Shown here: piece after piece, positions 3 through 18,390 of the stretch
How positions within the stretch are numbered: the stretch's first letter is position 1
Layout: every line of letters begins with the position of its first letter
Source: a virus
Virus record (IMG/VR): IMGVR_UViG_3300044655_001100
Location: 1-64,000 of that record
Length of the DNA: 64,000 bases
Reading direction: 5' to 3' (one strand)
Made by a program: the position numbers and the translations under genes
Notes under the pieces: model-generated
Told to the model about the DNA's origin: nothing
Seen by the model: only the letters and a program-made list of their open reading frames with translations
The model's database searches: none

Positions 3-953
3 GTTTACATGAACGGATCGACCGATTATCTTTCGGTTCATGCAGATGCCTCCGTTAGCTATAATGTTGTCCCAAACAACTTCTGGTTCTCAGCTTCTCT
101 CACAAACCAGACACTGACAGAGGTTGTCGGCACAACGGCATCAGTCAGGGCGTCTATAAATGCGGCACAAGCTATTCCGCAGAACGTAATTACGAAAGTT
201 GCGCTTAATCAAGCCCAATTTGACCCGCAAAGCTGGCTGAACTACGCCAACAACCGGATTATCCCGACAATTCCGGGTTATTACCAATTCTCTTCTTTAG
301 GAAGTTGGCAGGTAACAACAGAGTTCAATCGTTCGATACAGGTTCGGAAGAACGGAGCTGCCATAACTGTGGCCGATACGTTCACTGCTGGCGGCACAAT
401 GGAACTGTCGGACGCCGTATATATGAACGGCTCGACAGACTATCTTGAACTGTATGTGTTCCAAGCTTCGGCTGCGGCTGTTAACCTTGACAATAACATT
501 GCATACACATTCTTCATTGTCTCCCTCGTCGGCGCTAATCAGGCGGTGCCTGCGGTCAGGGAGACAACAAGCGCATACGGAATTGGCTCCAACACCACCG
601 GGTCCAATCAATACGCGAATTGTGAACTTGATAACCTTCGGTTCTTCTGGAGAGGCGGCGGTGGTGCATCGGTCTTCATTTCTACGATTTCCGGAACGAC
701 GACCATTCAAGGTGCTTATGGCCGAAATGCTTACGGTGGTGGCGCGGATGCCTTGGGTCTTGCACCCGGAACCGGCAGTGGTCCTCTCACCGTTACGACG
801 ACGCCAGTAGCCCTCACGGTCAACTGGTCAACCATGGGCCAAATCATCGCAACATTCCGGGATATTGGTGCTGGAAGAAGCTATCAGATGAACGCTATCC
901 TTCAGCATAGCTACCAGAACAGCCAAATCTTCGTTAACCGCATCAGCGACTAA
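3..953 (+). CDS. Tail fibre protein with C1q-like domains, 5' end outside window
   Basis: The frame is open to the left edge. The first visible codons read VYMNGSTDY, and the same string recurs internally as AVYMNGSTDYLELY, so the ATG at position 9 lies inside a domain and the gene is cut by the window. The visible part has at least one complete C1q/TNF-like jelly-roll repeat (roughly residues 45-180: AIPQNVITKVALNQ, then GYYQFSSLGSW, then NGSTDYLELYVFQ) and the tail of an earlier copy. Such domains trimerise at fibre tips. Its function is inferred as receptor binding. A similar domain is at the C-terminus of the protein at 10535-11428. An AGGAG-type site follows, serving the next gene. Confidence 0.75.
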   Translation, partial: VYMNGSTDYLSVHADASVSYNVVPNNFWFSASLTNQTLTEVVGTTASVRASINAAQAIPQNVITKVALNQAQFDPQSWLNYANNRIIPTIPGYYQFSSLGSWQVTTEFNRSIQVRKNGAAITVADTFTAGGTMELSDAVYMNGSTDYLELYVFQASAAAVNLDNNIAYTFFIVSLVGANQAVPAVRETTSAYGIGSNTTGSNQYANCELDNLRFFWRGGGGASVFISTISGTTTIQGAYGRNAYGGGADALGLAPGTGSGPLTVTTTPVALTVNWSTMGQIIATFRDIGAGRSYQMNAILQHSYQNSQIFVNRISD

Positions 954-1008
954 CAACAAACGGGCGGGAACCAACATCCCGCCCTCCTCTATTCTTAGGA
1001 GATAGGCC

Positions 1009-1293
1009 ATGAGCCTTTATGAAAAGATTATCGCAATTCATCCAGAACTAAAGCCAGAAGATTTTCATCCAGCCACTGGCTCAATCCTTTTGCAGGATGA
1101 CAGTGATGGCTTCGGACCGCATATTGCCAAGTGGGAACATCCTACACTTGCTCAGCCTTCTGATTCAGAACTCGGCATTACCCGCAATCCTGCGACCGTA
1201 ATCATTGAAGGCGAGATCATTCAACCAGCGCCAATGATTACAAGTGATAAAGTAATTGACATGACAGCACTTATGTCTGCTCCAACTGAGTAA
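1009..1293 (+). CDS. Small tail-fibre-associated protein (XkdW-like)
   Basis: A 94-residue protein preceded by a good Shine-Dalgarno (TTAGGAGATAGGCCATG). The N-terminal half has the pattern LYEKIIAIHPELKPEDF followed by SILLQDDSDG and W-HPTLAQPS. I recognise this from small proteins encoded beside phage fibre genes, often annotated XkdW-like. It sits between two fibre genes and probably assists or decorates fibres. The role is inference from context. Confidence 0.55.
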   Translation: MSLYEKIIAIHPELKPEDFHPATGSILLQDDSDGFGPHIAKWEHPTLAQPSDSELGITRNPATVIIEGEIIQPAPMITSDKVIDMTALMSAPTE

Positions 1294-1326
1294 TATAGCT
1301 GACATTTTTCCAATAGGATTTTGAGA

Positions 1327-3675
1327 ATGAGTAATCTTCCGATATCGGGCTTGCCAACAGGCTTACCAGTCAGCGACACAGATTTGCTGGCTGATACACA
1401 GGCTAGTGGCACAGGTCCGGTACAGATTACAGCTTCCGGTCTCAAAACCTATATTGGAAATGGGTTGACACTTACGAATGCCGTTATTAACAGCCCGTTC
1501 TCCATCAATGGCGTTAATTATTCTTGGCCATCATCAAACGGGCCTTCTGGTTCTGTCATCACGAATGATGGGGCAGGAAACCTAACATGGTCGCTTAACC
1601 CGCTTGCTGGAACAGTTACATCAGTTAATGTTTCTGGTGGCTTGACAGGTCTGACAACTATTAACGGCCCTATTACTTCTGTAGGCACGATTGACCTTGC
1701 GGGTGTCTTGAATGTCGCTCACGGCGGCACTGGTGGCACAAATCGCACATCAGCGATGATGAATATTCTGCCGCCTATTAGCTCAACGACAGCGGCTTAT
1801 GCCTTATTCAACGATGGCATTGGCACATATTATTGGGCGTATGCAGGTGGTGGTAGCGCACCGGGTGTTCTGAATATTTCTACTGGAACAACTGGTCTGC
1901 TTGCGAACGGTTCATCTGGAAACGTAAACGGAAATGTTCTGCTTAGCGGCGTTTTGAAGGTCAGCAATGGCGGCACTGGTATTTCCTCTCTTGGGGCTGC
2001 TGGTCAAGTTCTGACATCAGACCCACTTATGTCCAATACAACAGCAGTTTGGGACTACCCTAGAGCGGCTGGCGCTGACGGCGAAATCCAATTCAATAAT
2101 GCAGATAGGTTTGCTGCGTCTCCAAATTTTACATTTGCTGACGGTCTTTATGCTACTCTTACTCTAGGCAAATCTGGTTCAGCTAACGGCGATTTGAGAC
2201 TGCAAAATATTTTATCGCCAACTGGACATGTCCGTATTACTGTTGATCCAAATTCGACTACTTCTTGGATGCTTACCCTTCCAACTGATGGCGGTTCAGT
2301 TGGTCAGGTTCTGACGACAGATGGCACGGGAATAACAAGCTGGACGACACCTCCGAGCGGTATCGAAGTCGGCGTCACGACAATCACGAGCGGAACGGCT
2401 GGCTCTATCCCATACAATAACGGAACGGTTTATTCCGAAGACAACGCCAATCTGTTTTGGGACGACACGGCAAAACAACTGTCGATTGGCACAAACACAA
2501 CTGCAACAACCCCCGCAGACATTCAGCTTCAGGTTGTAAAAGATGCGCTGATTGCAGGTATGACGGTTGGTCTGGGCCCTGCTCAGGGTGCGACGAATAC
2601 AGCAGTTGGTAAGTCTGTTCTTGCTGCGAATACGGTTGACGGCAATCTGACAGGCATCGGCGTTGAGGCCCTTACAGCGAATACTAGCGGCATTAGGAAC
2701 ACCGCCGTTGGTTATCAGTCTGCATACAGCAACACGATAGGCAACCAAAACACCGCATTCGGAGCCTATGCTTTATATTACAACGATGCGGACAATAATA
2801 CAGGCTTAGGGTTCCAAGCATGTTCTTTTAATGTTTCTGGGACAAACAACACGGCTGTCGGCGCAAATACATTAGCGGCTTCCGGCGCGGACAGTCAAAA
2901 CACGGCTGTCGGATCAAATGTATTGAATGCGTTTACCGGCGGTAACAACAACACAGCGGTCGGCGCATTTGCAGCGCAGGTTTTGCAGGGCGGCACAGAC
3001 AATACATTTATTGGCGCTAACGCTTCTGGAATTTCAAACACAAGCGTAGACAGAAATACCGGCGTTGGCAGTCGTTCTCTGGAAAATACAAGCAGTAGCA
3101 ACAACACGGCTGTCGGCGTAGAATCCTTACAGTCAAATACTGCAAATACTGGCGGTAACACGGCTGTTGGTTATCGTTCGCTCAGAAACTGTCAGGGAGC
3201 AAGAAATACGTCCATTGGACGCCTTGCGATGTCTTTTGACACCGTAACGGGAGCCGAAAATACGGCGCTCGGCATTAGCGCACTCGGTTCTCTTACCTCA
3301 GGTAATTACAATACCGCCCTTGGAAAAAGCGCTGGTTTTGGCATAACAAGCGGATCAAGCAATACATTAGTCGGTGCATATGACGCTGGTGCGGCCCCAA
3401 TAAGTGGGACGGGAAGCAATTACATTGTTCTGTCTGATGGCGATGGAAACGTCCCAGTTTTTTGGGAAGGCTTAACAAGAAATCAAATTTGCAACGGTCC
3501 TGTTGTAACCCAAGGATATACCGTTGCTGGTTTAGCTGCTATAGCATCTCCTATTGTTGGAATGCGTGTTCATGTGACTGATGCAAATGCTCCATCGTTT
3601 TTGGCAACGCTTGCTGGCGGTGGTTCGATTAGATGCCCTGCGTTTTATGATGGCACAAACTGGGTAGCTGGCTAA
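1327..3675 (+). CDS. Tail fibre with GGTG repeats and YadA-type NTAVG repeats
   Basis: About 782 residues. I chose ATG 1327 over the upstream TTG at 1321 because AGGA lies 8 bases before it. The N-terminal half carries phage-fibre motifs (HGGTGG, NGGTGISSLG, GAGNLTWS). Residues about 423-700 are roughly a dozen degenerate repeats of the NTAVG.xAL type, the left-handed beta-roll seen in trimeric autotransporter heads (Hep/Hag). The C-terminus has YIVLSDGDGN then a small terminal domain. This predicts a long trimeric adhesin on the virion. The stop overlaps the next start (TAATG). A second fibre with the same repeat is at 9101-10519. Confidence 0.75.
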   Translation: MSNLPISGLPTGLPVSDTDLLADTQASGTGPVQITASGLKTYIGNGLTLTNAVINSPFSINGVNYSWPSSNGPSGSVITNDGAGNLTWSLNPLAGTVTSVNVSGGLTGLTTINGPITSVGTIDLAGVLNVAHGGTGGTNRTSAMMNILPPISSTTAAYALFNDGIGTYYWAYAGGGSAPGVLNISTGTTGLLANGSSGNVNGNVLLSGVLKVSNGGTGISSLGAAGQVLTSDPLMSNTTAVWDYPRAAGADGEIQFNNADRFAASPNFTFADGLYATLTLGKSGSANGDLRLQNILSPTGHVRITVDPNSTTSWMLTLPTDGGSVGQVLTTDGTGITSWTTPPSGIEVGVTTITSGTAGSIPYNNGTVYSEDNANLFWDDTAKQLSIGTNTTATTPADIQLQVVKDALIAGMTVGLGPAQGATNTAVGKSVLAANTVDGNLTGIGVEALTANTSGIRNTAVGYQSAYSNTIGNQNTAFGAYALYYNDADNNTGLGFQACSFNVSGTNNTAVGANTLAASGADSQNTAVGSNVLNAFTGGNNNTAVGAFAAQVLQGGTDNTFIGANASGISNTSVDRNTGVGSRSLENTSSSNNTAVGVESLQSNTANTGGNTAVGYRSLRNCQGARNTSIGRLAMSFDTVTGAENTALGISALGSLTSGNYNTALGKSAGFGITSGSSNTLVGAYDAGAAPISGTGSNYIVLSDGDGNVPVFWEGLTRNQICNGPVVTQGYTVAGLAAIASPIVGMRVHVTDANAPSFLATLAGGGSIRCPAFYDGTNWVAG

Positions 3676-4385
3676 TGGCTCTTAATGACAATCTTAGCAA
3701 CAGCTGGAATTTCGATCCTTCATTAGGTGAGATTATCTTAGGCGCATATGCTAGGTGCGGAATACGAAGAACCGAAATCACAACACAAATGATGGCGGAT
3801 GCCCGTTTTGAAGCCAATCTTGTAATGTCAGATTGGCAAGGAGATGGGTTAAACACGTATCAAGTTGAGTTAGTAACTCAGAATATTTTTAATGGGGAAG
3901 ACGCATATGTTATCCCCAATACAACAGTATTCACTCTTGATATGTATATCCGCCAGAATCCAGATCAGGCAAATCCAACGGACAGATTGATTATTCCAAT
4001 TAGCCGCAGTGACTATGCCGCAATCTCTAACAAAAAGATGCCGGGATTTCCAACGTCAGTTTGGATAGATCGTCAGTTACAGCCGATAGCTTATCTCTGG
4101 CCAGTTCCTAATTTTGATATTGTTAACGGACTGCAATATTACGTTCAAAAGCGTTCTATGGACAGTAATACAGTTAACGGCGAACAAGTTCAGATGCCGT
4201 TTGAAGCGTATGATGCATATGTGTGGTGCTTAGCTGAGAGGTTGGCATACATATATAGTCCTGATAGAATTGCTATGATACTGCCACGTAAGCAGCAAGC
4301 CTATCAAAGGATGTTACAGGCTACCACGGAGAACACACCGCTCGATTTTCAGGTCGAAGTGGGTTCATATTTTAGGGTTGGGTAA
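3675..4385 (+). CDS. Head-tail adaptor-like structural protein (gp4/SU10 adaptor type)
   Basis: 236 residues with N-terminal helices (LGEIILGAYARCGIRR, RFEANLVMSDWQGDGLN), a beta-rich centre containing IAYLWPVP, and C-terminal helices (AYDAYVWCLAERLAYIYS). This is the layout of P22 gp4 and SU10-type adaptor proteins, which lengthen the portal channel. The gene at 19457 has a similar layout, so the phage seems to carry two members. The match is by pattern only; a tail-tube role is the main alternative. It follows a fibre gene directly and is followed by a homing endonuclease. Confidence 0.5.
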   Translation: MALNDNLSNSWNFDPSLGEIILGAYARCGIRRTEITTQMMADARFEANLVMSDWQGDGLNTYQVELVTQNIFNGEDAYVIPNTTVFTLDMYIRQNPDQANPTDRLIIPISRSDYAAISNKKMPGFPTSVWIDRQLQPIAYLWPVPNFDIVNGLQYYVQKRSMDSNTVNGEQVQMPFEAYDAYVWCLAERLAYIYSPDRIAMILPRKQQAYQRMLQATTENTPLDFQVEVGSYFRVG

Positions 4386-4389
4386 GCGT

Positions 4390-5121
4390 ATGCTTCAAGA
4401 GGCTGCTGCATACAAAAGTAAATGGCAGAAGGCCCAACGTGCTCGTTTGAAAAGCGGGTGCGTTAATGATTCTTATGTATATGTGCATCTTGCGGAAGAC
4501 AGCGGTGAACCGTTTTATGTTGGTATTGGGCATACTGTGGGCAGGCCTTGGGATAAAACATGTCGCACTATTGAACACAGAAAAAATATAAGAGAACATG
4601 GTTATCAAGTAGAAATTATTATTGATAATGTAACAGAAGACACGGCACTTTACTGGGAAAGAACATGGATAAAATCACTTCGTTTGCAAGGTTTTAATCT
4701 AGAAAATAAAGCATCTGGAGGACAGCGCGGCTGGAGACATACAGAAGATTCTCGCCGCAAAATGTCTGAAAATAATTCTATGCGGAATAATGAATTTCGA
4801 AAAAACCAAAAACTTGGTGCTATCGTAGCATGGGAATCTCCAGAAAGAAAAGAAAACCTTTCGCGTAATAATCCTATGAAAGATCCAGAAATTGCGGAAA
4901 AGAACGCTTCCTTGCGCCGAGGAAAAGAACTTCCTTCAATGAAAGGAGGATTGCATCCTCGTGCTCAAAAAATAATAGAAATTGATGACAATAAATTATT
5001 TAATTCTATAAAAGAAGCTGCTGATTATTATGGATTAAAAAGTGTTGATATTTGTGCTGTCTGCAAAGGAAGGCAAAAAACAACAGGCAAGCGTATATTT
5101 AAATATGTAGAGGAGGCGTAA
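4390..5121 (+). CDS. GIY-YIG homing endonuclease with NUMOD motifs
   Basis: The catalytic N-terminal domain has YVYVHL then EPFYVGIG and RPWDK, with a later RTWIKSL segment, matching the GIY-YIG nuclease fold. The middle has NUMOD3-like repeats (GWRHTEDSRRKMSEN, NNPMKDPE). The C-terminus (IKEAADYYGLKSVDICAVCKGRQ) looks like a NUMOD1/IENR helix-turn-helix DNA-binding segment. The start is TTG 4378 or ATG 4390; GGGTAAG precedes the ATG. The gene is clearly AT-richer than the structural genes on both sides, which fits a free-standing homing gene inserted between them. Confidence 0.85.
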   Translation: MLQEAAAYKSKWQKAQRARLKSGCVNDSYVYVHLAEDSGEPFYVGIGHTVGRPWDKTCRTIEHRKNIREHGYQVEIIIDNVTEDTALYWERTWIKSLRLQGFNLENKASGGQRGWRHTEDSRRKMSENNSMRNNEFRKNQKLGAIVAWESPERKENLSRNNPMKDPEIAEKNASLRRGKELPSMKGGLHPRAQKIIEIDDNKLFNSIKEAADYYGLKSVDICAVCKGRQKTTGKRIFKYVEEA

Positions 5122-5122
5122 C

Positions 5123-6475
5123 ATGGCGTACGCTTCAATTTGCGGAAAAGCTGTAGCAAACGTAAATTCACCTGTTGCTTTCGCGACATGTGATAGATGT
5201 GCATCCGTCTATAATCACAATCAATTACGGTGGCAATACGATTACCGAGGCAGAACACTTCAAAATCTCCGCATACTTGTCTGCGAGAGGTGTGAAGACG
5301 AAGGACAGCCACAATTAAAACCAAGAATTTTGCCACCAGACCCGGTCAGCATCGCAAACGCAAGACCTTATCCTTATTGCTACGCAGAAGAAGACGACAG
5401 ATTTACAACCAACCCTGCGCTTCCTAATGTTGATTTAGGAACGACGGCAAATATTACGTTAGCCGGTTTTCAATTTGTTGATGGCGTCCAGTGTGTTGGC
5501 GGCGAATTAGTCCTTGTCAAAAACCAGACTGATGCTACCAAGAATGGTATCTACAAAGTATCGTCAGGTCTTTGGGTTTTACAAGGCTATAACAATGACA
5601 CCAAGAAATGGTTTAGTGTCGATCTGAATGAGATCACTTATTATTTCGAGCTTGGTTATTATCAAGGCGCGGTGAATGTTGCTCGTGGGTTAACACAATA
5701 CGCCAAGCTGTTTCAGATCACATTTGATCCGAATGGATTGTTGGCGACGGGCACAGCTGTAACGGCTGCTATTGTTAGTGCAAGTCTTGTCAATCATTAT
5801 GATTTTTATACCGGCATCTACATGGAAGGTGCCGACGAGCGTATTACTGAAACTCTTGATGTCAGAACAACGCAACAGACTGGCGCGGCCCCTGGCAGCT
5901 TGAATGAAATCCCAGGTTACTCAAACATCGTCCCTGGGTGGTGCTTGATTGGCAGGCCAAACCAGAACCCATATGGTTGTGGCTCAAAGATTGGATTGCC
6001 CCCTGGGTTTGATAGTCTGCCATTTGCTGGCCCATTAGCGCCGACATTACAGAATCAGTCGATTAATTATTGGTATAATGATATACTTCAGCCGTATCAG
6101 TGGATCGGTGCGAATAACGTTACAGCGACATGGTATCCGAATGACTGGTGGCCAAACCCAGGACCAGGGGCACCATGGAATCCGATTGCCTTAATGAATC
6201 AAGCAAACAGCTGGATTAACAATGTAAATCTGGTTGATTTTTGGGGTAATAACTTGAATCAACAGGTAGATTGGGGTAATTATTTAGCTCAGCCAATCTT
6301 CCCACCAGGCGGCGAAATTCTGTGGACCAACGACAAGTGCGAATTGGTATTGTGGCATGATACGCGACAACCACCGCAGCCGTTGCCTAACCCGTTGATT
6401 ACGGGCGTTGCAGGTTTCAATGTCAACTTTGGGGTTATTTATCCAAATACTTTGCCGCCAATAGGGTTAAATTAA
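5123..6475 (+). CDS. Virion protein with N-terminal zinc-binding module
   Basis: 450 residues. The N-terminus has two CxxC pairs (C23/C26 and C54/C57) framing LRWQYDYRG, a module I know from uncharacterised phage structural proteins with the form DRCG..LRWQ-D..G. Residues about 110-200 hold a fibre-associated domain (TTANITL then VDGVQ then LVLVKNQTDATKNGIY) that also occurs in the giant fibre at 11906-17179. The C-terminal half is rich in W, P and N. Probably a tail or fibre-attachment protein; the exact role is unknown. It is flanked on both sides by GIY-YIG genes. Confidence 0.6.
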   Translation: MAYASICGKAVANVNSPVAFATCDRCASVYNHNQLRWQYDYRGRTLQNLRILVCERCEDEGQPQLKPRILPPDPVSIANARPYPYCYAEEDDRFTTNPALPNVDLGTTANITLAGFQFVDGVQCVGGELVLVKNQTDATKNGIYKVSSGLWVLQGYNNDTKKWFSVDLNEITYYFELGYYQGAVNVARGLTQYAKLFQITFDPNGLLATGTAVTAAIVSASLVNHYDFYTGIYMEGADERITETLDVRTTQQTGAAPGSLNEIPGYSNIVPGWCLIGRPNQNPYGCGSKIGLPPGFDSLPFAGPLAPTLQNQSINYWYNDILQPYQWIGANNVTATWYPNDWWPNPGPGAPWNPIALMNQANSWINNVNLVDFWGNNLNQQVDWGNYLAQPIFPPGGEILWTNDKCELVLWHDTRQPPQPLPNPLITGVAGFNVNFGVIYPNTLPPIGLN

Positions 6476-7101
6476 TGACTAATCTTTCAGGCTCATTTGT
6501 ATATTGCCATCTGAAGGCAGATTCAGATGAGCCTTTTTATGTTGGCATAGGCACCAATGTTAAGCGCCCATGGGATATGCACAACGGGCGTTCGCAATGG
6601 CATAAGGATACTGTTAAAAAACACGGCGTTCGGGTTGAAATAATCATTGACGAACTTGATCGTAAAACGGCAAAATTTTGGGAAGTTAAATGGATTAAGG
6701 CTCTTAAAGATTCTGGGTATAAATTAGTTAATATGACTTCTGGAGGCGATGGCTTGAATGGTATGAGCCTTTCGCAAGAAACTAAAAATAAAATAAGCTT
6801 ATCGCTTTTATCTAAAGGAGAAAATCATCATAGTAAATCTCCTGAGCATAGAGCTAAAAATAGTTCTAGACAAAAGGCTAATTCAGAAAATCATATTATG
6901 AAATTGCCTGAAAAAAGAGAATGGAAAAAGCAAGAATGGGAAGAAAAGTTTGGCGGTAGCCCTATGCTTATTCCAGAAATAGCTAAAAAAGTAAGTGTTA
7001 CAAGAAAAGCCCAATGGGCAACGTTAGAATTCCGCATGAAAATGCTCCCAAGTTCGTGGTACAATTCAAATGTCCGCGATAAATTTTATTGGGGAGCCTA
7101 G
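6475..7101 (+). CDS. Second GIY-YIG homing endonuclease
   Basis: 208 residues. FVYCHLKADSDEPFYVGIG and KRPWD form the GIY-YIG core, and VKWIKALKDSGYKLVNMTSGG follows as in the first copy. The remainder is lysine/asparagine-rich with NUMOD3-like segments (SLSQETKNKISLSL, KSPEHRAKNSSRQKA). It overlaps the stop of the upstream gene by one base (TAATG), lies only 3 bases before the next gene, and is AT-rich. Homologous to 4390-5121 but diverged and lacking the C-terminal IENR-like segment. Confidence 0.85.
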   Translation: MTNLSGSFVYCHLKADSDEPFYVGIGTNVKRPWDMHNGRSQWHKDTVKKHGVRVEIIIDELDRKTAKFWEVKWIKALKDSGYKLVNMTSGGDGLNGMSLSQETKNKISLSLLSKGENHHSKSPEHRAKNSSRQKANSENHIMKLPEKREWKKQEWEEKFGGSPMLIPEIAKKVSVTRKAQWATLEFRMKMLPSSWYNSNVRDKFYWGA

Positions 7102-7104
7102 CTA

Positions 7105-8313
7105 ATGGCCGTTCCTTATATCTTCAGCCAATATTTAGGAGGCGGTGGAATCCCGTTGGCGCAGCTGGATGCCAACTTTGCCTATTTGACGAGCGGTAAT
7201 CCTGTACTCACTAATTTAACCTTGACAGGCAATCTTACGGTTGCTGGCACATCTACTTTTAATGGCACAACGGCGATTAATGGCCCACTGACGATTGATG
7301 GATTTAGTGTCAACCCAACAGGTGTTACGGGAACGGGCCTTCTTGTATTTAATACAGGTCCAACTCTTGTTGCTCCGAACCTTGGAACGCCTGCAAGCGC
7401 AAATTTGGCAAACTGCACCAACCTACCGATTAGCACAGGTGTTTCTGGGTTGGGTGCTGGCGTTGCGACTGCACTGTCGAATGCGCCAGACACTGCTGGC
7501 GGATTTATTACATATTCATCAAATACGACGGTTCCGACGGGTGCGGTATTCCATTTTGCTGCGCCAGCCATTCCACCTGGTTATTTAGTTTGTAATGGCG
7601 CTGGATATAGCACGGCTGTTTATCCTGCGTTGTTTGCTGTTATTGGATATACGTTTGGTGGTTCTGCGGGAACATTTAATGTCCCAAATTTAACGGGCGC
7701 ATTTATTCGTGGCGTTGGTGGCAATGCTGCTGCTTTGGGTGTCTTACAGCAAGATGGATTTGAGACACATAATCATAATTTAACCGATCCTGGTCATGAT
7801 CATACGCACACCGACCCTGGACATACGCATACTGTAACAGACCCTGGTCATACGCACACGATCAACGACCCTAGCCATAATCATACTGTAACCGATCCTG
7901 GGCATAATCACAGTATCAACGACCCAAGTCATACTCATGGCGCATCATCAAGTGATTCTGGCCACCTTCATGACATAAGTGGCACAGGGCCGAATGCAAA
8001 TGGCGGCGGTGCTGGCTGGCTTGTAAACCCTCAGGGGTTTATTACGCAAACTTTAACTGGCTTTGCAAACATTACCACAAGCATTGCAGGCGCATTAACG
8101 GGCGTATCCAATAACGCAAATGTGACGGGCGTAAGCAATGTTGCGAATACAACGGGCGTTACAAACAATACAAACACGACAGGCGTGACGAACGATACGA
8201 ATACGACTGGCATTACGAACGATGATAATACGACAGGCATTACGATAGACAATACGGGCATTAACGAAACAAGGCCATATAACATGGCGTTAGTTCCCGC
8301 GATTAAATACTGA
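7105..8313 (+). CDS. Tail collar fibre with His-rich DPGHTH repeats
   Basis: 402 residues. The N-terminal module PYIFSQYLGGGGIPLAQLD..FAYL is shared with the next gene and probably anchors the fibre. A phage collar domain (pfam07484 type) spans about 150-250: PPGYLVCNGAGYSTAVYPALFAVIG then FNVPNLTGAFIRG. It is followed by about seven tandem units of the DPGHTH/DPSHNH kind (about residues 225-285), then TGPNANGGGAGWLVNP, then NTTGVTN repeats, and ends ETRPYNMAL. HxH motifs of this kind bind iron in T4 gp12-like short tail fibres. Expected role: receptor-binding fibre tip stabilised by metal. Confidence 0.75.
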   Translation: MAVPYIFSQYLGGGGIPLAQLDANFAYLTSGNPVLTNLTLTGNLTVAGTSTFNGTTAINGPLTIDGFSVNPTGVTGTGLLVFNTGPTLVAPNLGTPASANLANCTNLPISTGVSGLGAGVATALSNAPDTAGGFITYSSNTTVPTGAVFHFAAPAIPPGYLVCNGAGYSTAVYPALFAVIGYTFGGSAGTFNVPNLTGAFIRGVGGNAAALGVLQQDGFETHNHNLTDPGHDHTHTDPGHTHTVTDPGHTHTINDPSHNHTVTDPGHNHSINDPSHTHGASSSDSGHLHDISGTGPNANGGGAGWLVNPQGFITQTLTGFANITTSIAGALTGVSNNANVTGVSNVANTTGVTNNTNTTGVTNDTNTTGITNDDNTTGITIDNTGINETRPYNMALVPAIKY

Positions 8314-9100: not shown

Positions 9101-10519
9101 ATGGTCGCTAAAGTAATTGCAGACACGTTCGTCGCATCAGGCGGCACACCGAATAATATTACGCTCGATACGGCGGGTAATGTCACGATTGGCAATGGCC
9201 TTATATCAACAGCTGATGCGACGATTAATGGCGTTCGTGTCGGCAATGGCGGCGGCGATATTGCGACGAACACCGCTGTTGGCGCTAGTGCTTTGACGGC
9301 AAATACCGCAGGCACCAACAACGTCGCCGTTGGCGCTAGTGCTTTGGCGGCGAATACGAGCGATCATAACGTCGCTGTAGGCTCCGGCGCTCTTGCATTA
9401 AATGTTGGAGGAACGCAAAATGTTGCAGTAGGAAGCGCTGCCCTTGCATCTAACATATCTTCAAACAATAACATCGCTATAGGACGTTTGGCTCTTAACT
9501 CAACTACCAGCGGAAACAATGTCGCCGTTGGTAGCCAGTCGCTTCAGGCAAATGTCAGCGGAACCAATAACTGTGCTTTAGGTGGCGGGACTCTTCGCCT
9601 TAATACCTCCGGTGTAAATAATACAGCTGTAGGTAATCAGGCTTTATTTAACAACAATGCGAACGGAAATTCTGCGATTGGTTTTGCAGCTCTGTATAGC
9701 AACACTACCGGCACACCGAATACAGCTGTTGGATATCAAGCCCTCAACCTCAACGTCTCCGGCACCAACAACGTCGCTGTTGGTGACAGTGCTTTGGCGG
9801 CGAATACGGGGAGCCAGAATACAGCAGTTGGTAGTCTTGCGCTTAGAGATAATATCGGAGGTCAGGGCAACTGTGGTTTTGGATATGGCGCTGGTACTAT
9901 CACAACCACTGGTAATTATAATATTTCCATTGGTTTTACAGCTTTAAATCAAAATTCGACTGGCAGTAATAATGTCGCAATTGGCGGTGGAGCATTATAT
10001 GCTAATACTTCAGATAATAATACAGCCGTTGGATTTAATTCTCTTATAAGTAATACCACAGGAATTAACAATGCGGCATTTGGTGTTAATTCTGGGGCTG
10101 ATGCTCTTATTAACCTCACAACACAAAATAACTACGTTGTCCTCGGCAACAATTCCACACAATTCCTCTACTGCAAAACAGCGACAATCACGACATCTGA
10201 CGTTCGTGATAAGATTGTTGACGGTGCTGTTCCACACGGATTAAGCTTTGTTAATCAAATCAACCCGATCAGCTACAAGTTTAAGGCAGAACGCGAAGAT
10301 ACAGTTGCTCAAGAAAACGAGCCGGTTCGATACGGCTTCTCCGCTCAAGAAATTCTCGCACTTGAGGGTGATAATCCAGCCATTATTGAGGCATCAAACC
10401 CTGATAAACTGGCATTTAACAGCGCCTATTTAATTCCTGTGCTTGTTAACGCGATCAAAGAACTCTCGGCCAAGAACGATGCTCTTGAGGCCCGTCTTGC
10501 TGCATTAGAATCTAAGTAA
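9101..10519 (+). CDS. Tail fibre with NTAVG repeats and C-terminal S74 chaperone domain
   Basis: 472 residues. Residues about 57-337 are YadA-head-like repeats (NTAVGASALTANT, NNVAVGDSALAANT). From about residue 366 the sequence SDVRDKIVDG, then FVNQINPISYKF, then YGFSAQEIL, ending in a coiled coil (AKNDALEARLAALE), is the intramolecular chaperone (peptidase S74, endosialidase type). In this family a Ser-Asp pair self-cleaves after trimerisation, and SD occurs at the domain start. The protein should fold as a trimer and shed its C-terminus. Upstream site AAGAGG. Confidence 0.85.
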   Translation: MVAKVIADTFVASGGTPNNITLDTAGNVTIGNGLISTADATINGVRVGNGGGDIATNTAVGASALTANTAGTNNVAVGASALAANTSDHNVAVGSGALALNVGGTQNVAVGSAALASNISSNNNIAIGRLALNSTTSGNNVAVGSQSLQANVSGTNNCALGGGTLRLNTSGVNNTAVGNQALFNNNANGNSAIGFAALYSNTTGTPNTAVGYQALNLNVSGTNNVAVGDSALAANTGSQNTAVGSLALRDNIGGQGNCGFGYGAGTITTTGNYNISIGFTALNQNSTGSNNVAIGGGALYANTSDNNTAVGFNSLISNTTGINNAAFGVNSGADALINLTTQNNYVVLGNNSTQFLYCKTATITTSDVRDKIVDGAVPHGLSFVNQINPISYKFKAEREDTVAQENEPVRYGFSAQEILALEGDNPAIIEASNPDKLAFNSAYLIPVLVNAIKELSAKNDALEARLAALESK

Positions 10520-10534
10520 TAAGGACACACTACC

Positions 10535-11428
10535 ATGCCAGTAACAATTGACGGCACAGCAGGCGTTATATCGCCAAATATGACAGTCACAACATTGACG
10601 CCGGGGTCTACTGTCGGCGTTGGCACTGGCGGTATTTTAAATAGCAGTGGTGGCGGTGGCGGTGGTGGTTCTGGAACTGCTGGGCAGTTGGCATATTATG
10701 CGGCAACAGGAACAACTTCTGTCGGCACAAATGCTGGCACGGGCGTTATTACGGCTATTGGACTTGCGGCTAATACAGCTGGCGGTATTTTAGTTCCATC
10801 AGCAGCTGGTACAGCGGGGCAGGTTTTACTTGGCGCTGGTTCTGGCGCAAGTCCAACATGGAGTTCCACGCCAACCCTTGGTGTTGTTGGAACGACTGCT
10901 GGAACGTTGGCGTTGGCTGGATCTACAAGTGGCTCAACGACATTAGCGGCATCTGCCATTGCTGGAACGACGACGGCTACGTTACCTGCACGGACTGGCA
11001 ATCTGATGATGGATGGGCCTGCGTTTAGTGTTTATCAAAGCGCGGCTCAAGCTGCATTACCTGCTGGAACACCTACAAAGATTTCACTACAAACAGAAGA
11101 ATTTGATACAAATAATAATTTTGATAACGCAACTAATTACCGATTTACTCCAACTGTTGCAGGATATTATCAAATTAACGGTAGCGTTCAAGTTTCTGGT
11201 GTTACCACGGGTCTAACATCTTATATTTACAAAAATGGTTTATCTTACAAACAAGGAAGTTATCTCCAAACATCCTCATCAACCCCAATATCTAATGTTG
11301 GTTCTGTTATTTATTTTAATGGAACAACAGATTATATCGAATTATGGGCATATACAGTAACCTCCTTGTCAGTAATTTCATCCAGTTCTTCTACTTTCTT
11401 AAACGGTTGCCTCATCCGTGGCGCATAA
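10535..11428 (+). CDS. Tail fibre with C-terminal C1q-like domain
   Basis: 297 residues. The start MPVTIDGTAGVISP and the low-complexity glycine run are typical of fibre shafts. Repeats such as GTAGQLAYYAATGT recur in the fibre at 17206. From about residue 165 a C1q-like domain follows (AQAALPAGTPTKISLQ, then VAGYYQINGSVQV, then FNGTTDYIELWAY), homologous to the partial protein at the left edge. Probable trimeric receptor-binding tip. It lies in an unbroken run of fibre genes. Confidence 0.75.
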   Translation: MPVTIDGTAGVISPNMTVTTLTPGSTVGVGTGGILNSSGGGGGGGSGTAGQLAYYAATGTTSVGTNAGTGVITAIGLAANTAGGILVPSAAGTAGQVLLGAGSGASPTWSSTPTLGVVGTTAGTLALAGSTSGSTTLAASAIAGTTTATLPARTGNLMMDGPAFSVYQSAAQAALPAGTPTKISLQTEEFDTNNNFDNATNYRFTPTVAGYYQINGSVQVSGVTTGLTSYIYKNGLSYKQGSYLQTSSSTPISNVGSVIYFNGTTDYIELWAYTVTSLSVISSSSSTFLNGCLIRGA

Positions 11429-11456
11429 CTCTATAATCTACTAAGGACCAAGAACC

Positions 11457-11885
11457 ATGGCCCAACGCCAAATACCCAACCTACCAGCGGCAGTATCTCT
11501 GTCTCCAACTGCACTCATCGAAATTGTGCAAAATGGAACAAGTATGAGAGCCTCTGCTGGGCAGATTGCGAAGCTTGGGTCATCGGTTGTTTTTGATGTT
11601 GTAAATAATGTTTCGGACACAGCGGTATTTTATCCGATTTATTTGAGTATTTATGAAGGCACAACGAATATCGCTTATGCGTCGAGTCCAAATTATTTAT
11701 ATGTTCCGCAAGAGGGTAGATTATCGTCGCTGCGTCCAGAGGCGATGCAGGGTGTTGCGTATAATAAGAATGCAGTTACACAGAATTACACATTTCCAAC
11801 TGGCGATAATGGTATGAGCGCAGGGCCTGTCACCATATCGGCGGTTTTGACTGTTCCCACAGGGTCTAATTGGGTCGTCGTCTGA
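11457..11885 (+). CDS. Small fibre-tip protein
   Basis: 142 residues. The N-terminus (MAQRQIPNLPAAVSLSPTAL) resembles the attachment segment of other fibres. The C-terminal about 35 residues (NYTFPTGDNGMSAGPVTIS then SNWVVV at the stop) are the same terminal module as in 8324-9085 and 11906-17179. It looks like a fibre reduced to its anchoring and terminal modules, perhaps a head-fibre or accessory fibre. No catalytic motif is visible. Confidence 0.55.
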   Translation: MAQRQIPNLPAAVSLSPTALIEIVQNGTSMRASAGQIAKLGSSVVFDVVNNVSDTAVFYPIYLSIYEGTTNIAYASSPNYLYVPQEGRLSSLRPEAMQGVAYNKNAVTQNYTFPTGDNGMSAGPVTISAVLTVPTGSNWVVV

Positions 11886-11905
11886 ACGGCTAGAGGATTT
11901 ATAAG

Positions 11906-14900
11906 ATGAGCGTTACGATCAACGGCACCAATAACTCAATCGCTTTTCCGGGCACAACCTCTGGAACGATTACGCTTTCGGCCACTCCTGCATCTGGAAC
12001 ACGCACACAGTATCTGCCAAACGCAGATGGAACATTGTTGCTTGCGACTGTTGTTATGAACTTCCCCACAACGCTTGGCGCAGCGGGTAACGTTCTTTCA
12101 ACCGATGGCGCTGGTAATCTTTCTTGGATATCTGGCGGCGGTGTTGGATCTGTAACATCAGTTAATGCAGCGACAGTTGCAGGTATGGGGCTGTCATTTA
12201 GTGGTGGACCGATTACAGCTGCTGGCACGTTAACTCTTGGCGGCACTCTTTCGATTGCTAATGGCGGCACGGGTCAAACAACGGCAGCGGCAGCTGCTAA
12301 TGCGTTGCTTCCTGCGCAGACTGCTCCTCAAGCTGGTTATGTGCTTTCAACCGATGGCGCTGGTGTATTAAGCTGGATAGCTAACGTCACGGCACCTGCT
12401 GCACCAGTTAATTCGGTTCAGTTTAATAATGCTGGATCTTTTGACGGCGACTCAGACTTTACTTTTGTTAGTGGCGTTAATGCTGTGCTTAGCGTTGGTA
12501 GCTTTGCTGGCAAAACTGGCGTTCTCAAGCTTCAGAATACTGGCATTAGCGGAAGTGTAACAATTGCTCCACCGACAGGCGCTCTTGCGTCTTGGACATT
12601 GACGCTTCCAAATAATGACGGTGCTGCGGGTGAATTCCTGACAACAGACGGCGCAGGAAATACGTCGTGGGCCCCAGCTGGTGGCGGTGGTGGTTCTGTT
12701 ACGAGCGTTGATGTGTCTGGTGGGTTAACAGGTCTAACGACTTCTGGCGGACCTATTCTGACTTCTGGCACAATCACGCTGGCCGGAACGCTTAATGTTT
12801 CAAACGGCGGCACAGGCGCAACGACTGCGATTGCTGCTCTTAATAATCTTCTGCCTACTCAGGGCGGCAATGCTGGACAGTATCTCACAACAGACGGCTT
12901 GAATAACGTCTCTTGGGACTCGATTGATATATCAACCGCATCTGTTACGGGCATTCTTCCGGTTGCCAAGGGTGGCACAGGGCTCAACGCTGTAGGACCT
13001 GCGGGTGAAGTTCTAATATCAAACGGAACGACAGCTGGCTGGGCAGCGCTTCCTCCTGTTGCGGATCTTTCTGGTGGCGGCGCAGGTCAGGTTCCGTATC
13101 AATCTGCTGCTAATAATACTGCATTTGTTGCTGCTGGAACGGTTGGTCAGGTTTTTCAATCTAACGGCACTGCTGCTCCAACTTGGGGCCCAATCAATTT
13201 AGCGTCGGCTGCCTCAGTCACAAACATCTTGCCAATCGCCAATGGCGGCACAGGCTTGTCTGCACTGGGCGCAAGTGTGCAAACGGCGCTTGGTGTTAAC
13301 GTCGGATCAGCTGGCTCTATAGTTCTAAATGGCGGCGCTCTCGGAACTCCTGCCTCTGGCGATCTGTCAAACTGCACAAATCTTGATTTGACATCTGGCG
13401 TTGCGAACGTTCTTCCGATTGCCAATGGTGGCACGGGGTTGAACACCGTTGGTCCTGCGGGTGAGATTCTCATTTCAGACGGCACGGGTGCAGCGTGGGC
13501 TGCAATGCCACCAGCCACTGATATTGCAAATGGTGCTGCTGGACAAATTCCATATCAAACAGCGCCAGACACAACGTCATTTGTTACGGTTGGAACGGCT
13601 GGTCAGATCCTGCAATCAAATGGTGCAGCTGCGCCGACATGGATTAATGTCCCAAATGCACCGTCAATTGCTGGCGGTATTGCGTCGGAAGTTCTGTATC
13701 AATCATCACCTGGCGTCACGGCTTTTGTTCCAAACGGAACGATTGGCGAATCGCTTCTTTCGAACGGCGTTGGCGCACCCGCATGGGGGCCGCTTGATCT
13801 GAGCCTCGCGGCTGCTGTTACAGGTATCCTGCCAATTGCTCATGGTGGCACAGGTCTGGCTGCTCTTGGTGCTGGCGTTCAGACGGCGCTTTCAAACGCT
13901 GCTGGCGGCGCAAATGGTTTTGCGACACTTAATGCTTCGGGCATCCTTCCGACAACGCAGGGCGGCATCGGCGGTGCGCTGAATGCTGGCTGGACATCAA
14001 TCCTTGGCGCTGCCCCTGGCACAGGCGTTGGCACGGCTCTTGGAATCAACGTCGGCACAGCTGGTTCGTTTGTCGTTAATGGTGGAGCTCTTGGTACGCC
14101 AGCCTCTGGTGTTTTGACGAATGCAACGGGCCTTCCGCTAACAACGGGCGTTACAGGAATCCTGCCGATTGCGAATGGTGGCACTGGTCTTGGCGTAATT
14201 GGCACAGTTGGTCAGGTTCTAACGTCTGACGGCACGAATGCTGTTTGGGCGAATGAGTCGGCGTTTGCGGCAGATTTGTCTGGCGGCGCTGCATCTCAGC
14301 TTCTTTATCAGTCAGCTGCAAACACAACGGCTTTCCTGCCAAACGGCACAGCTGGTCAGGTTCTCCAGTCGAATGGTGCGCTTGCTCCTCAGTGGGTGAC
14401 TTCGGACGTCACAATTGGCACGACGAGCATTCCACTTGACGGCTCTTCGGTGTCTCTTGCTGGCGTTAGTTTTGTAACGCTTACACAAGACCCACCAACA
14501 GCGCTTGATGCTGCGACAAAGCAATATGTGGATCTTGCCACATCTTCCGTAAACCGCATGGCTCCTGTTGATGCGGCAACAACTGGCCCTATTACCCTTA
14601 GTGGTGCGCAGACGGTTGACGGCGTTCCCCTTGTTGGTGGTGAACGTGTTCTTGTTAAGAACCAAGTAGCCCCTGCAGACAACGGCGTTTATGACGTTGG
14701 AACGCCTTGGACACGTTCTGCAGATGCAGATACGTGGAATGAATATGTTGCGGCACAGGTTTATGTTCTGAATGGCTCGACGCAAGATGCGACTTCTTGG
14801 ATTCAGACGTCCCCAGCTGGTGGAACGCTTGGTAGCACTGCGCTGAATTGGGAACAGACATCTGGCATTAATAGTTACGCTGCCGGTATTGGCCTTACAC

Positions 14901-17179
14901 AGGCTGGTAACGTCTTTAACAATGCTGGCGTTCTTTCGTTTTCTGGCAGCACGACTGGCTTAACACCTGCTCTTGCGACAACTGGTGCTGTATCTCTTGG
15001 TGGTACGCTCCTTCCTGCTCACGGCGGCACGGGCTTAAATGCGCTTGGCACGGGTGTGGCTACAGCGCTCGGCATCAACGTCGGCACAGCTGGCTCCTTC
15101 GTCGTCAACGGCGGCGCTCTCGGAACGCCTTCTTCTGGCACACTGACGAACGCGACTGGCTTGCCGATTTTAACAGGCGTATCTGGCCTTGGCACAAACG
15201 TAGCGACCTTCCTTGCAACGCCGTCGAGCGCTAACCTTGCGGCAGCGATTACAGATGAGACAGGCTCTGGCGCACTTGTGTTTGCGAACTCGCCAACATT
15301 GGTTACGCCAAATCTTGGAACGCCGTCTACGCTTGTTCTGACAAATGCGACGGGCCTTAATTTAACGACAGGCGTGACAGGTATATTGCCTATTGCGAAC
15401 GGAGGCACAGGACTTTCGGCACTCGGCACAGGCATTCAGACAGCGCTCGGCACAAATCTTGGTGCAGTTGGTGGCTTGCTGACGGTTGGCGCTACGCCGC
15501 TCACGAACAATGGTGTTCTTCTTGGAACATCTGTAGCGGGTGAACTTGGTTCGACAGCAGTTGGCATAACGGGTCAGATTCTGATCGGTCAGACAGCTTC
15601 TGCGCCAATTTGGTCATCTACAGTTACTTTGGGCGTTCAAGGCACGACTGCTGGCGTATTACGTCTTGCAAACACGAATGCTGGTAACTTCCCAACGACG
15701 ATTTCGTCTAGTGCATCGGCAACTGCTGCGTGGACTCTGACGCTCCCAGTTGATGATGGATTGGCGGGTCAGGTTCTCTCGACTGACGGCAACGGCCTTA
15801 CATCGTGGATTGCGAATGACGCTGGCATCACTGTTAATACGACAGCGATTATCGGTGGCACAACAAACCGTATTCTTTATGACAATGCTGGCACCGTTGG
15901 TGAATTACCTGTCGGAACTGGCGTTGCTGCGGCGATTGCAGCAAACGTCGGCGCTGCTGGCGGCTTCCTGATTAATGGTGCAACACCACTGACGGCAAAT
16001 GGCGTCGTTCTTGGCACATCGACACTGGGTCAGCTTGGTTCGACGGCTGTTGGAACGACAGGTCAGGTGTTTATTGGAAACACGGCTGCTGCTCCTTCGT
16101 GGTCATCGACGCTAGTTCTTGGAACACAGAGCACAACAGCTGGTGTATTACGCCTTACGAATACGGCTGTTGGCGCATTCCCAACGACAATTCAATCGGC
16201 TTCTGGCGCTACAATGGCGTGGACATTAACATTGCCACCAGATGATGGTTTGGCTGGTTATGTTCTTGCGACAGACGGATCTGGCAATACAACATGGGTT
16301 GATAAAGCCGCACTAGGTTTCACTCAAGGGTCTGTTCCATTTATCGGCGCTGCTGGCGATCTTGCTCAAGATAACGCTAATTTCTTCTTCGATAACACGA
16401 ATAATCGCCTTGGGTTAATTACATCTGCCCCAGATGTAACGCTTGATGTTGGATTGGCCACTGACGCAATTGCAATGCCTAAAGGCACAACGCTTGAGCG
16501 TCCAAATCCTGCGGCCCCTGGCTACACACGCTTTAACATCACTACTGATGCTCTTGAGACATTTGATGGAACTGATTGGGTTAGAGCAAGTCAAGGCGTC
16601 TATTCATTAGGTTCTGTTTTATTTGCAGATGCTAATGGAGCAATAGCGGAAGATAATTCAAACTTCTTCTGGGATAACACGACGAAGACGTTGGCTCTTG
16701 GTGAAGCGTCAACAAGTGATGGACAGCTGAAGCTCTACAGCAATCTTTCTGCAAATAGTGTTAGTATTTTCTCTGGAAACAACACTGTTTCTTGGAACTT
16801 AATACTTCCTGTTGATGATGGCGCAGCTGGTCAAGCACTTATCACAGACGGTTCTGGCGTAACGTCATGGGGCGCTGCTGGTGCGACCATTACGGACACG
16901 ACGGCTGCTGGCACGAATTATCCTGTCTTTGCGAATGCTAATACAGGCACATTCTCAACTGCCTATGTTACGAGCACCAAATATACCTTCAACCCTAGCA
17001 CGGGTCAGCTGACTGCGCCGAATATGGCGTCATCTGCGGGTATCCATTTGAATGCTCAGGCGATAACGGCTAGTTACACAATTCCAGCTGGTTACAATGG
17101 ATTAAGTGCTGGGCCTGTTGTATTATCTGGCGGCGTGACCGTTACAGTCGCGGCAGGCGGAAACTGGGCAGTAGTTTAA
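11906..17179 (+). CDS. Giant tail fibre (1757 aa) with GGTG repeats
   Basis: The longest fibre of the array. About ten copies of ILPIANGGTGLSALG-type units alternate with GTPASGxLTNATGLPLTTGV units across residues 100-1240. Blocks with GQVLSTDGAGNLSW-like sequence recur throughout. Residues about 853-988 contain the fibre-associated domain TGPITLSGAQTVDGVPLVGG then LVKNQVAPADNGVYDV, also present in 5123-6475. The last 36 residues are the shared terminal module (SYTIPAGYNGLSAGPVVLSG, ending NWAVV). Repeats at the DNA level make the gene prone to recombination between copies. It is presumably a long beta-structured trimeric fibre. Confidence 0.8.
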   Translation: MSVTINGTNNSIAFPGTTSGTITLSATPASGTRTQYLPNADGTLLLATVVMNFPTTLGAAGNVLSTDGAGNLSWISGGGVGSVTSVNAATVAGMGLSFSGGPITAAGTLTLGGTLSIANGGTGQTTAAAAANALLPAQTAPQAGYVLSTDGAGVLSWIANVTAPAAPVNSVQFNNAGSFDGDSDFTFVSGVNAVLSVGSFAGKTGVLKLQNTGISGSVTIAPPTGALASWTLTLPNNDGAAGEFLTTDGAGNTSWAPAGGGGGSVTSVDVSGGLTGLTTSGGPILTSGTITLAGTLNVSNGGTGATTAIAALNNLLPTQGGNAGQYLTTDGLNNVSWDSIDISTASVTGILPVAKGGTGLNAVGPAGEVLISNGTTAGWAALPPVADLSGGGAGQVPYQSAANNTAFVAAGTVGQVFQSNGTAAPTWGPINLASAASVTNILPIANGGTGLSALGASVQTALGVNVGSAGSIVLNGGALGTPASGDLSNCTNLDLTSGVANVLPIANGGTGLNTVGPAGEILISDGTGAAWAAMPPATDIANGAAGQIPYQTAPDTTSFVTVGTAGQILQSNGAAAPTWINVPNAPSIAGGIASEVLYQSSPGVTAFVPNGTIGESLLSNGVGAPAWGPLDLSLAAAVTGILPIAHGGTGLAALGAGVQTALSNAAGGANGFATLNASGILPTTQGGIGGALNAGWTSILGAAPGTGVGTALGINVGTAGSFVVNGGALGTPASGVLTNATGLPLTTGVTGILPIANGGTGLGVIGTVGQVLTSDGTNAVWANESAFAADLSGGAASQLLYQSAANTTAFLPNGTAGQVLQSNGALAPQWVTSDVTIGTTSIPLDGSSVSLAGVSFVTLTQDPPTALDAATKQYVDLATSSVNRMAPVDAATTGPITLSGAQTVDGVPLVGGERVLVKNQVAPADNGVYDVGTPWTRSADADTWNEYVAAQVYVLNGSTQDATSWIQTSPAGGTLGSTALNWEQTSGINSYAAGIGLTQAGNVFNNAGVLSFSGSTTGLTPALATTGAVSLGGTLLPAHGGTGLNALGTGVATALGINVGTAGSFVVNGGALGTPSSGTLTNATGLPILTGVSGLGTNVATFLATPSSANLAAAITDETGSGALVFANSPTLVTPNLGTPSTLVLTNATGLNLTTGVTGILPIANGGTGLSALGTGIQTALGTNLGAVGGLLTVGATPLTNNGVLLGTSVAGELGSTAVGITGQILIGQTASAPIWSSTVTLGVQGTTAGVLRLANTNAGNFPTTISSSASATAAWTLTLPVDDGLAGQVLSTDGNGLTSWIANDAGITVNTTAIIGGTTNRILYDNAGTVGELPVGTGVAAAIAANVGAAGGFLINGATPLTANGVVLGTSTLGQLGSTAVGTTGQVFIGNTAAAPSWSSTLVLGTQSTTAGVLRLTNTAVGAFPTTIQSASGATMAWTLTLPPDDGLAGYVLATDGSGNTTWVDKAALGFTQGSVPFIGAAGDLAQDNANFFFDNTNNRLGLITSAPDVTLDVGLATDAIAMPKGTTLERPNPAAPGYTRFNITTDALETFDGTDWVRASQGVYSLGSVLFADANGAIAEDNSNFFWDNTTKTLALGEASTSDGQLKLYSNLSANSVSIFSGNNTVSWNLILPVDDGAAGQALITDGSGVTSWGAAGATITDTTAAGTNYPVFANANTGTFSTAYVTSTKYTFNPSTGQLTAPNMASSAGIHLNAQAITASYTIPAGYNGLSAGPVVLSGGVTVTVAAGGNWAVV

Positions 17180-17205
17180 TAGTCAAAACTTAGAGGTTTT
17201 ATAAA

Positions 17206-18183
17206 ATGGCGACGATTACACTCAACGGCTCAGCATCGGGCTCTATTAATCTTACCGTTCCTGCGGCTGCTGGGACGAATACTGTTACCATCCCCGCCGC
17301 TACTGGCACGTTGATGCTGTCAACTAATTCTTATTCTTGGCCAGCCAGCTACGGCACGAGTGGTCAGGTTCTTTCAACTGATGGTGCGGGTAATCTTTCG
17401 TGGATTAATGCTGGCAGCGGCGGCGGAACGGTTAATTCTGGCACATCAGGTCAACTTGCATATTATGCTGCTACAGGAACTGCTGTAAGTGGATTGACGC
17501 TTGGAACAGGCGTTCAAACGGCGATTGGTATTGCCGCAAATACTGTTGGGGGAATTGTTACATATAATGGAACGGCACCCACTCAAACAGTTTTAAGTTC
17601 TGGTTCTGGAACATATACAGTACCTACGGGCGTTAAATATATCCGTATCCAAATGTGCGGTGGCGGTGGCGGTGGTACCGGCGTTACCCCTGGTGTTGGT
17701 TACGGAACTGGGGGTTCTGGTGGAACTACATCATTTGGTTCGTATAGTGCTTCTGGTGGTGGCGGTGGCACAAACACAGGATCTGGAGTTAGAGGGCTAA
17801 CTGTTACAGGATCACCAACTATAATTATAAACGGAAACGATGGAAATAATTCCACTTTTGTAGGAATATCTTCTACTTCCGGCGGCGGAAATGGCGGAGC
17901 ATCATTTTTTGGCGCTGGCGGCAATGGAGGTAAACCGGGTTCTAGTGGTGCGAACGCTTTTGTTTATGGCGCTGGCGGAGGGGGTATGGGTGGTGATTCT
18001 GGAAGTTCTGTCTCTCCTGGATGCGGAGGAGGGGGCTCTCCCTATATCTCAACAATAATTGCATCTCCTGCTGCTACATATTCTTACGTCGTTGCAGCTG
18101 GTGGTGCAGCTGGTGCTGGAACTTTGTCAGGCGGAGCAGGTAGTTCTGGCGTTATTATCATTGACGAATATTACAATTACTAA
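17206..18183 (+). CDS. Glycine-rich tail adhesin
   Basis: 325 residues. The N-terminal part has fibre repeats (TLNGSASGSINLTVPAAAG, SGQVLSTDGAGNLSW). After YTVPTGVKYIRIQMCGGGGG the protein is dominated by glycine-rich runs separated by short variable stretches (GTGGSGGTTSFG, GAGGNGGKPGSSGAN, GGGMGGDSGSS), ending GSSGVIIIDEYYNY. This resembles the polyglycine-sandwich adhesins of T-even-like phages (gp38 type), where variable loops between glycine helices contact the receptor. The similarity is structural style, not proven homology. Confidence 0.7.
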   Translation: MATITLNGSASGSINLTVPAAAGTNTVTIPAATGTLMLSTNSYSWPASYGTSGQVLSTDGAGNLSWINAGSGGGTVNSGTSGQLAYYAATGTAVSGLTLGTGVQTAIGIAANTVGGIVTYNGTAPTQTVLSSGSGTYTVPTGVKYIRIQMCGGGGGGTGVTPGVGYGTGGSGGTTSFGSYSASGGGGGTNTGSGVRGLTVTGSPTIIINGNDGNNSTFVGISSTSGGGNGGASFFGAGGNGGKPGSSGANAFVYGAGGGGMGGDSGSSVSPGCGGGGSPYISTIIASPAATYSYVVAAGGAAGAGTLSGGAGSSGVIIIDEYYNY

Positions 18184-18192
18184 GGTGCAATC

Positions 18193-18390
18193 ATGAAAAG
18201 ATATGCGATTATAAAAGGCGAAGAAGTCATCAACGTAGTATCTTACGAAAACCCTCCGTCAAATCCACCACTTGGGTTTCCAGCTGATCACATTGCTGTT
18301 GAATCAGAACGTGCCAGCCCTGGATGGCTTTATAAAAATGGGCAATTAATCGATACTATACCGATTATTCCTCATGTAATTGAAAAATAA
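18193..18390 (+). CDS. Small tail-fibre-associated protein
   Basis: 65 residues, preceded by AAGGTGCAATCATG. The sequence MKRYAIIKGEEVINVVSYEN then PGWLYKNGQLIDT is like short proteins encoded after phage fibres that may be assembly factors. It closes the adhesin array. No catalytic motif is visible. Confidence 0.55.
   Translation: MKRYAIIKGEEVINVVSYENPPSNPPLGFPADHIAVESERASPGWLYKNGQLIDTIPIIPHVIEK

Follow-up and report, generated by a model that had tools for sequence, protein, structure and literature searches.

A probable modular tail-fibre island with at least 11 fibre genes in a contig of a likely podovirus related to HTVC023P

The Ackermannviridae and the jumbo Klebsiella phage phiKp24 are myoviruses belonging to phage families other than that of the virus described here. 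Several receptor-binding proteins are carried by each of their virions, through a branched tail-spike complex in the former and as 14 tail spikes in the latter, and examples of branched as well as multi-fibre systems exist elsewhere among phages (PMC11414711). In the Kuravirus SU10, there are two fibre classes with different docking proteins, the long fibres being bound to the adaptor ring and the short ones to the nozzle (PMC9509320). Marine phage metaviromic islands contain tail fibre, C1q, YadA, gp38 and XkdW genes in a variable host-recognition region (PMC3909814), and recombining host-recognition variants were described for cryoconite phages (PMC7468147). Here, we describe a block of fibre genes that we consider fairly likely to be a modular, exchanging tail-fibre island, which would give a virion several kinds of fibre and several receptor specificities, and would allow quick replacement of tips.

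The DNA that we analysed (the window, 64 kb) is the first part of a linear IMG/VR contig of 96,186 bp (G000, ~96.2 kb), the rest of which was examined as segments L003, with the terminase and portal genes, and L004. Family matches, together with synteny, place this uncultured phage among the podoviruses, as a relative of HTVC023P, CRP-901 and MW202675. Its TerL, MCP (gene at contig 85,552-86,466) and nozzle all link it to MW202675 and to HTVC023P- and CRP-901-type phages; the MCP is 80% identical to that of MW202675 and 38-40% identical to those of the HTVC023P/CRP-901 types, and the nozzle identities are 23-37% (tblastn). The window encodes an SU10-type tail adaptor (19457-20143; PF24175, 1.4e-18) and a nozzle/stabilization protein (20147-22237; phrog_3287, 3.8e-53; tblastn) related to the PDB nozzle proteins 8zkm and 8zkk (~1e-7), both on the + strand, so that a short tail is likely as far as can be read from the genes alone. 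No near relatives were found in a megablast search of phages, and searching genome contigs with the MCP revealed no host, prophage or relative. Outside the region described below, the window contains a tandem repeat, GTAAACAATG, at 62004-62031 (10-bp unit, 2.8 copies, 100% match).

The original prediction placed at least nine fibre or fibre-tip proteins at 3-18390, and nine fibre-like ORFs, one of them a C-terminal fragment, are indeed present there, every one on the + strand. They do not lie side by side as claimed, being interrupted by four non-fibre genes: a head-tail adaptor gene (3675-4385), a conserved zinc-ribbon tail protein gene (5123-6475) and two GIY-YIG homing endonuclease genes (4378-5121 and 6475-7101). 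Two small proteins (1009-1293 and 18193-18390) are also encoded within these limits; these six genes are on the + strand as well. The array runs on at the other end of the contig, and its first ORF (3-953) is incomplete. In the whole contig, at least 11 fibre genes, with the two halves of the fibre at the contig junction taken as one gene (12 entries if split), comprise ~21.3 kb of fibre coding sequence, or 22% of the contig. All on one strand, the fibre genes form an island flanked by the capsid/decoration genes on one side and the adaptor-nozzle genes on the other.

The fibres combine C1q-like, CtW, S74, collar or polyglycine tips with shafts of GGTG or YadA-type head repeats, and their N-terminal anchors fall into classes A-D (relatives also have E and F); the classes were seeded by regular expressions of our own making, with which the N-termini of the 1448-, 526- and 1757-aa fibres were not recovered. 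The ORF at 3-953 encodes the C-terminal end of a giant fibre, including one or more C1q-like tips (phrog_13989, 6.6e-11; collinearity with the circular relative G002). It is followed by the gene of a putative fibre-assembly chaperone (1009-1293), XkdW-like by eye, which had no match in PHROGs and NCBIfam and has a counterpart beside the same fibre in G002. The next fibre (1321-3675), probably starting at ATG 1327, joins anchor A to GGTG and YadA-type head repeats (phrog_6002, 9e-32; phrog_4636, tail spike, 1.5e-25) and has its C-terminus in common with a 1242-aa fibre of G002. Anchor B is present in two genes, one (7105-8313) with a tail-collar domain (PF07484, 5e-17) and His-rich repeats, and the other (8324-9085) with a CtW C-terminal domain and tail-fibre matches to GenBank phages. 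The fibre at 9101-10519 has anchor D, a YadA-type head and a C-terminal S74 chaperone (Peptidase_S74, PF13884, 1.8e-5; residues 366-419 of 472). Module profiles identified anchor C, a polyglycine linker and a C1q-like tip in the product of 10535-11428, and anchor A with a CtW tip and nearly no shaft in a short fibre of 142 aa (11457-11885), whose counterpart in G002 is likewise 142 aa long. Downstream are a giant GGTG-repeat fibre of 1757 aa with a CtW tip (11906-17179; phrog_27782, 2.6e-30), the N-terminus of which resembles class C by eye, and a fibre with anchor C and a polyglycine tip (17206-18183; phrog_863, 1.6e-6) weakly similar to the T-even gp38 group. A 65-aa protein (18193-18390) gave no match in profile and NCBIfam searches, and a small fibre-like protein (18517-18885, + strand; phrog_5906, 2.3e-9) has a C-terminus that clusters with the fibre ends of relatives.

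The tip types that had been named on first reading fared differently. The collar and S74 types were confirmed by the PF07484 and PF13884 matches, the latter (2e-5) above the cut-off, and the YadA-type adhesins by matches to YadA-type/tail-spike PHROGs (tail spike or virion proteins). GGTG repeats can be read directly in the sequence, but the giant fibre that carries them matches only PHROGs of unknown function; likewise, a glycine-rich protein is present, its match to phrog_863 ('tail fiber assembly') being weak. The C1q-like label is weak, as Pfam C1q was matched in one of nine aligned tips (7e-4) and not in the window tip of 10535-11428.

The head-tail adaptor-like protein among the fibre genes (phrog_12985, 5e-11; phrog_637, head-tail adaptor Ad3, 0.003) has homologues in 18 loci of this phage group. 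As in MW202675, where an 'intron associated endonuclease' is found at the matching place, the adaptor gene is followed by that of a homing endonuclease (4378-5121; phrog_314, 2.7e-15; PF22083). The zinc-ribbon protein (CDRC...CE.C), recognised by alignment, has an N-terminus common to 20 loci, and as a single-sequence probe it confirmed no relative. It contains an inserted fibre-type domain of ~125 aa (5417-5800; phrog_17264, phrog_11518) that is 41% identical over 79 aa to the 1757-aa fibre (7e-13), is missing from eight aligned relatives and was seen in this contig only. The second GIY-YIG endonuclease gene (6475-7101; phrog_314, 1.7e-12) directly precedes the anchor-B fibres. Other ORFs of endonuclease type were observed elsewhere: 23603-24370, near the nozzle genes, matches endonuclease VII-type PHROGs (phrog_1035, 3e-26) and is probably another homing endonuclease gene; an HNH-like ORF (L003:7330-7752) is nested, by eye, in another frame within a DNA methyltransferase-like ORF (L003:6371-8017); and the product of L004:6624-7361 clusters with HNH-like proteins that a number of relatives encode just after their MCP.

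At the other end of the contig, further fibre genes span 89,172-96,184. Two fibres of 1448 and 526 aa (89,172-94,999) lie upstream of the junction, and the last ORF (L004:15018-16184, contig 95,018-96,184) is the N-terminal piece of a giant fibre, 63% identical to residues 1-363 of a 2242-aa fibre of G002. Over 334 aa, the ORF at 3-953 shows 45% identity to the same protein (residues 1911-2237). Since the two ORFs are collinear with the two ends of the G002 fibre, we regard 3-953 as the C-terminal fragment of the giant fibre, the middle of which is missing from the linear contig. G002 was taken as circular on account of a 193-bp overlap, 99% identical, between the two ends of its contig.

The comparison among related phages that the original prediction had called for shows an island that grows and shrinks, with a widely varying number of fibres and exchanged modules. 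The distance from the MCP to the nozzle is 29.9 kb in this phage and 35.0 kb in G002, versus 7.8-16.9 kb (13.3 +/- 2.4 kb) in 12 other relatives and 13.0 kb in MW202675, so that the excess is far outside the spread. The claim of an unusually large adhesin coding load thus holds as measured against the phage's own relatives (29.9 kb vs a mean of 13.3 kb and a maximum of 16.9 kb). The core order of MCP, decoration, adaptor-1, zinc-ribbon, adaptor-2 and nozzle is kept in most relatives, adaptor-1 being displaced in G013, G014 and G016, and one to six fibres are recognisable around the core; these counts are lower bounds, and block length is the safer measure. The stretch from the MCP to adaptor-1 varies even between close relatives: in G009 (MCP 97% identical in amino acids), it is ~1.6 kb long and the fibre gene is absent, while in G006 (MCP 99% in amino acids, 92% in nucleotides) it holds two giant fibres before the contig ends. 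For G027 and G028, whose MCP is one codon longer, ungapped MCP identities and tree branches were discarded as artefacts (84% by tblastn). Contigs of this phage group (L185, L186, L206, L045 and others) often stop inside fibre or collagen-like repeats, and arrays are therefore probably undercounted in metagenomes. Three tandem copies of an SU10-type adaptor, diverged from each other, were observed in the MCP-to-nozzle orientation in L187 (12554-14588), L199 (11106-13140) and L204 (9701-11735), and three tandem copies also in L111 (2128-4225) and L112 (3736-5833); our phage has one. Relatives with three adaptors may have a tail with stacked or mixed adaptor rings.

Such variation would also be expected if adjacent fibre genes had simply accumulated by acquisition, as partly redundant genes serving no special apparatus, in the manner of marine-phage host-recognition islands. 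Variable islands of tail-fibre, C1q, YadA, gp38 and XkdW genes are known in marine phages (PMC3909814), and the relatives differ widely in fibre number. However, our phage and its relative G002, in which the same genes flank the block in the same order, both have a block about double the usual length for the family, and a number of its N- and C-terminal modules are found in both; the doubled size together with these conserved modules suggests that the block is kept. We regard ordinary accumulation as possible but rather unlikely.

The exchange of modules is seen in the combinations of tips with anchors. In profile searches, the S74 tip was found on anchor D in our phage, on B in G002, L186 and L201, on C in L193 and on E in L197, and in L206 an A anchor carries what looks, by eye, like an S74 end. 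The CtW tip occurs on an A anchor, on a B anchor and on the 1757-aa fibre. Residues 7-1057 of the 1448-aa fibre are 67% identical to fibre 1 of G006, which marks an orthologous shaft, whereas its C1q-like tip is 66% identical to the end of the adjacent fibre 2 of G006; the MCP genes of the two phages are 92% identical in DNA. This comparison suggests, at the level of sequence, that a tip moved between neighbouring fibres. The YadA/S74 part of the 9101-10519 fibre matches fibres of Pelagibacter, Methylophilales, Prochlorococcus and Bacillus phages from residue ~55 on, that is, past the anchor, which these cross-lineage matches usually leave out. In support of the earlier idea of interchangeable receptor-binding genes, therefore, tips are found on different anchors and one appears to have shifted between neighbours, which is an exchange of modules. 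Exact 18-mers repeated within the array cover 251 bp; in size-matched stretches of the rest, they cover 27 bp on average and 66 bp at most. Exact repeats between different array genes are just 14-19 nt long and in part a consequence of glycine-rich coding. The exchange probably proceeded by recombination across short repeats.

The multi-receptor branched apparatus of the original prediction was not borne out. In a complex of the Ackermannviridae kind, fibres would be bound to each other via conserved branching domains, with one of them anchored in the virion. Many fibres of differing length in one block would suit this architecture, as would the sharing of anchor B by two genes and of anchor A by at least three, and the 142-aa CtW fibre could serve as a connector. 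Profile searches of the fibre proteins against Pfam and PHROGs, which could miss distant homologues, nevertheless found no Gp10- or XD-like branching domain, and the N-termini of most fibres belong to shared classes, where a branched complex would have one anchored member. A branched complex thus seems improbable to us. PDB profile searches with anchors A and B, the adaptor-1 alignment and the products of 17206-18183 and 10535-11428 gave nothing credible, and the zinc-ribbon alignment gave one chance-level match only.

As for expression, a Shine-Dalgarno-like match, at least a short one, precedes every window fibre gene with its start in view (1327, 7105, 8324, 9101, 10535, 11457, 11906 and 17206). 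The genes without such a match in the same table (3675, 4390, 6475 and 19224) include no fibre gene. Gaps of 3-33 bp precede the window fibre genes, and sigma-70-like sites in window positions 1-20000 are not in excess over shuffles. The Shine-Dalgarno-like sites favour active genes over silent cassettes, while falling short of proof of expression. Reverse transcriptase (PF00078) had no match in the 96-kb record, with positive controls, and a diversity-generating retroelement was rejected. We regard as very unlikely a reservoir of tip cassettes that are, for the most part, silent or in decay, from which one or two fibres are expressed and others occasionally recombined in, as, for all the many tips, the exchange between neighbouring genes and the short repeats that would fit it, the ORFs are intact and preceded by these sites, no sign of a retroelement was found, and a similar array is present in G002, to which G010 (L045), from a different dataset, is 99.97% identical over a 14.1-kb overlap including the start of the array.

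If the block is, as we favour, a modular island that supplies several kinds of fibre to each virion, its anchor classes would dock, by analogy with SU10, at separate sites of the adaptor/nozzle/zinc-ribbon region; the docking sites are guesswork, as the anchors have no PDB match. A virion would carry fibres of different kinds, and those with the same anchor would compete for, or mix at, a single docking site, resulting in several receptor specificities and fast replacement of tips. Between relatives, the island grows, shrinks and swaps modules, probably via short-repeat recombination. That such competition of same-anchor genes for one site gives virions of one clone differing fibre mixtures is an unlikely extension. 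Should the reading be true, a podovirus of ~100 kb would be a combinatorial multi-receptor particle that spends about one-fifth of its genome on adhesion. With fibre numbers from one to at least 11 around a conserved core, comparison within this family can address how multi-receptor phages arose and which rules govern the exchange of anchors and tips, and the island may show a route by which phages exchange receptor-binding parts.

Compared with HTVC023P/CRP-901-type podophages and MW202675.1, the phage has homologous MCP, TerL and nozzle proteins, tail adaptor genes at matching places and, likewise, fibre genes between the MCP and the nozzle, but the genomes of those phages are 53-61 kb long and the present contig 96.2 kb. 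With SU10 it shares the SU10-type adaptor (PF24175) and the nozzle; SU10, however, has a single pair of long fibres, a single short fibre and no large array, in contrast to the at least 11 fibre genes found here. Fibres with modular N- and C-terminal parts are common to the Ackermannviridae and phiKp24 (PMC11414711) and to our phage, in which the profile searches found no XD/Gp10 domain. The T-even gp37/gp38 locus has its likeness in polyglycine tip proteins with weak phrog_863 matches, each of which in G002 comes directly after a fibre gene; unlike in that locus, the gp38-like polyglycine tip of 17206-18183 is fused to an anchor of its own. The marine metaviromic islands contain the same domain types but catalogue variable regions across many phages, and here at least 11 fibre genes stand in one block. 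The kind is thus already known from host-recognition islands and multi-fibre systems, and the island described here is a larger, podoviral version of it.
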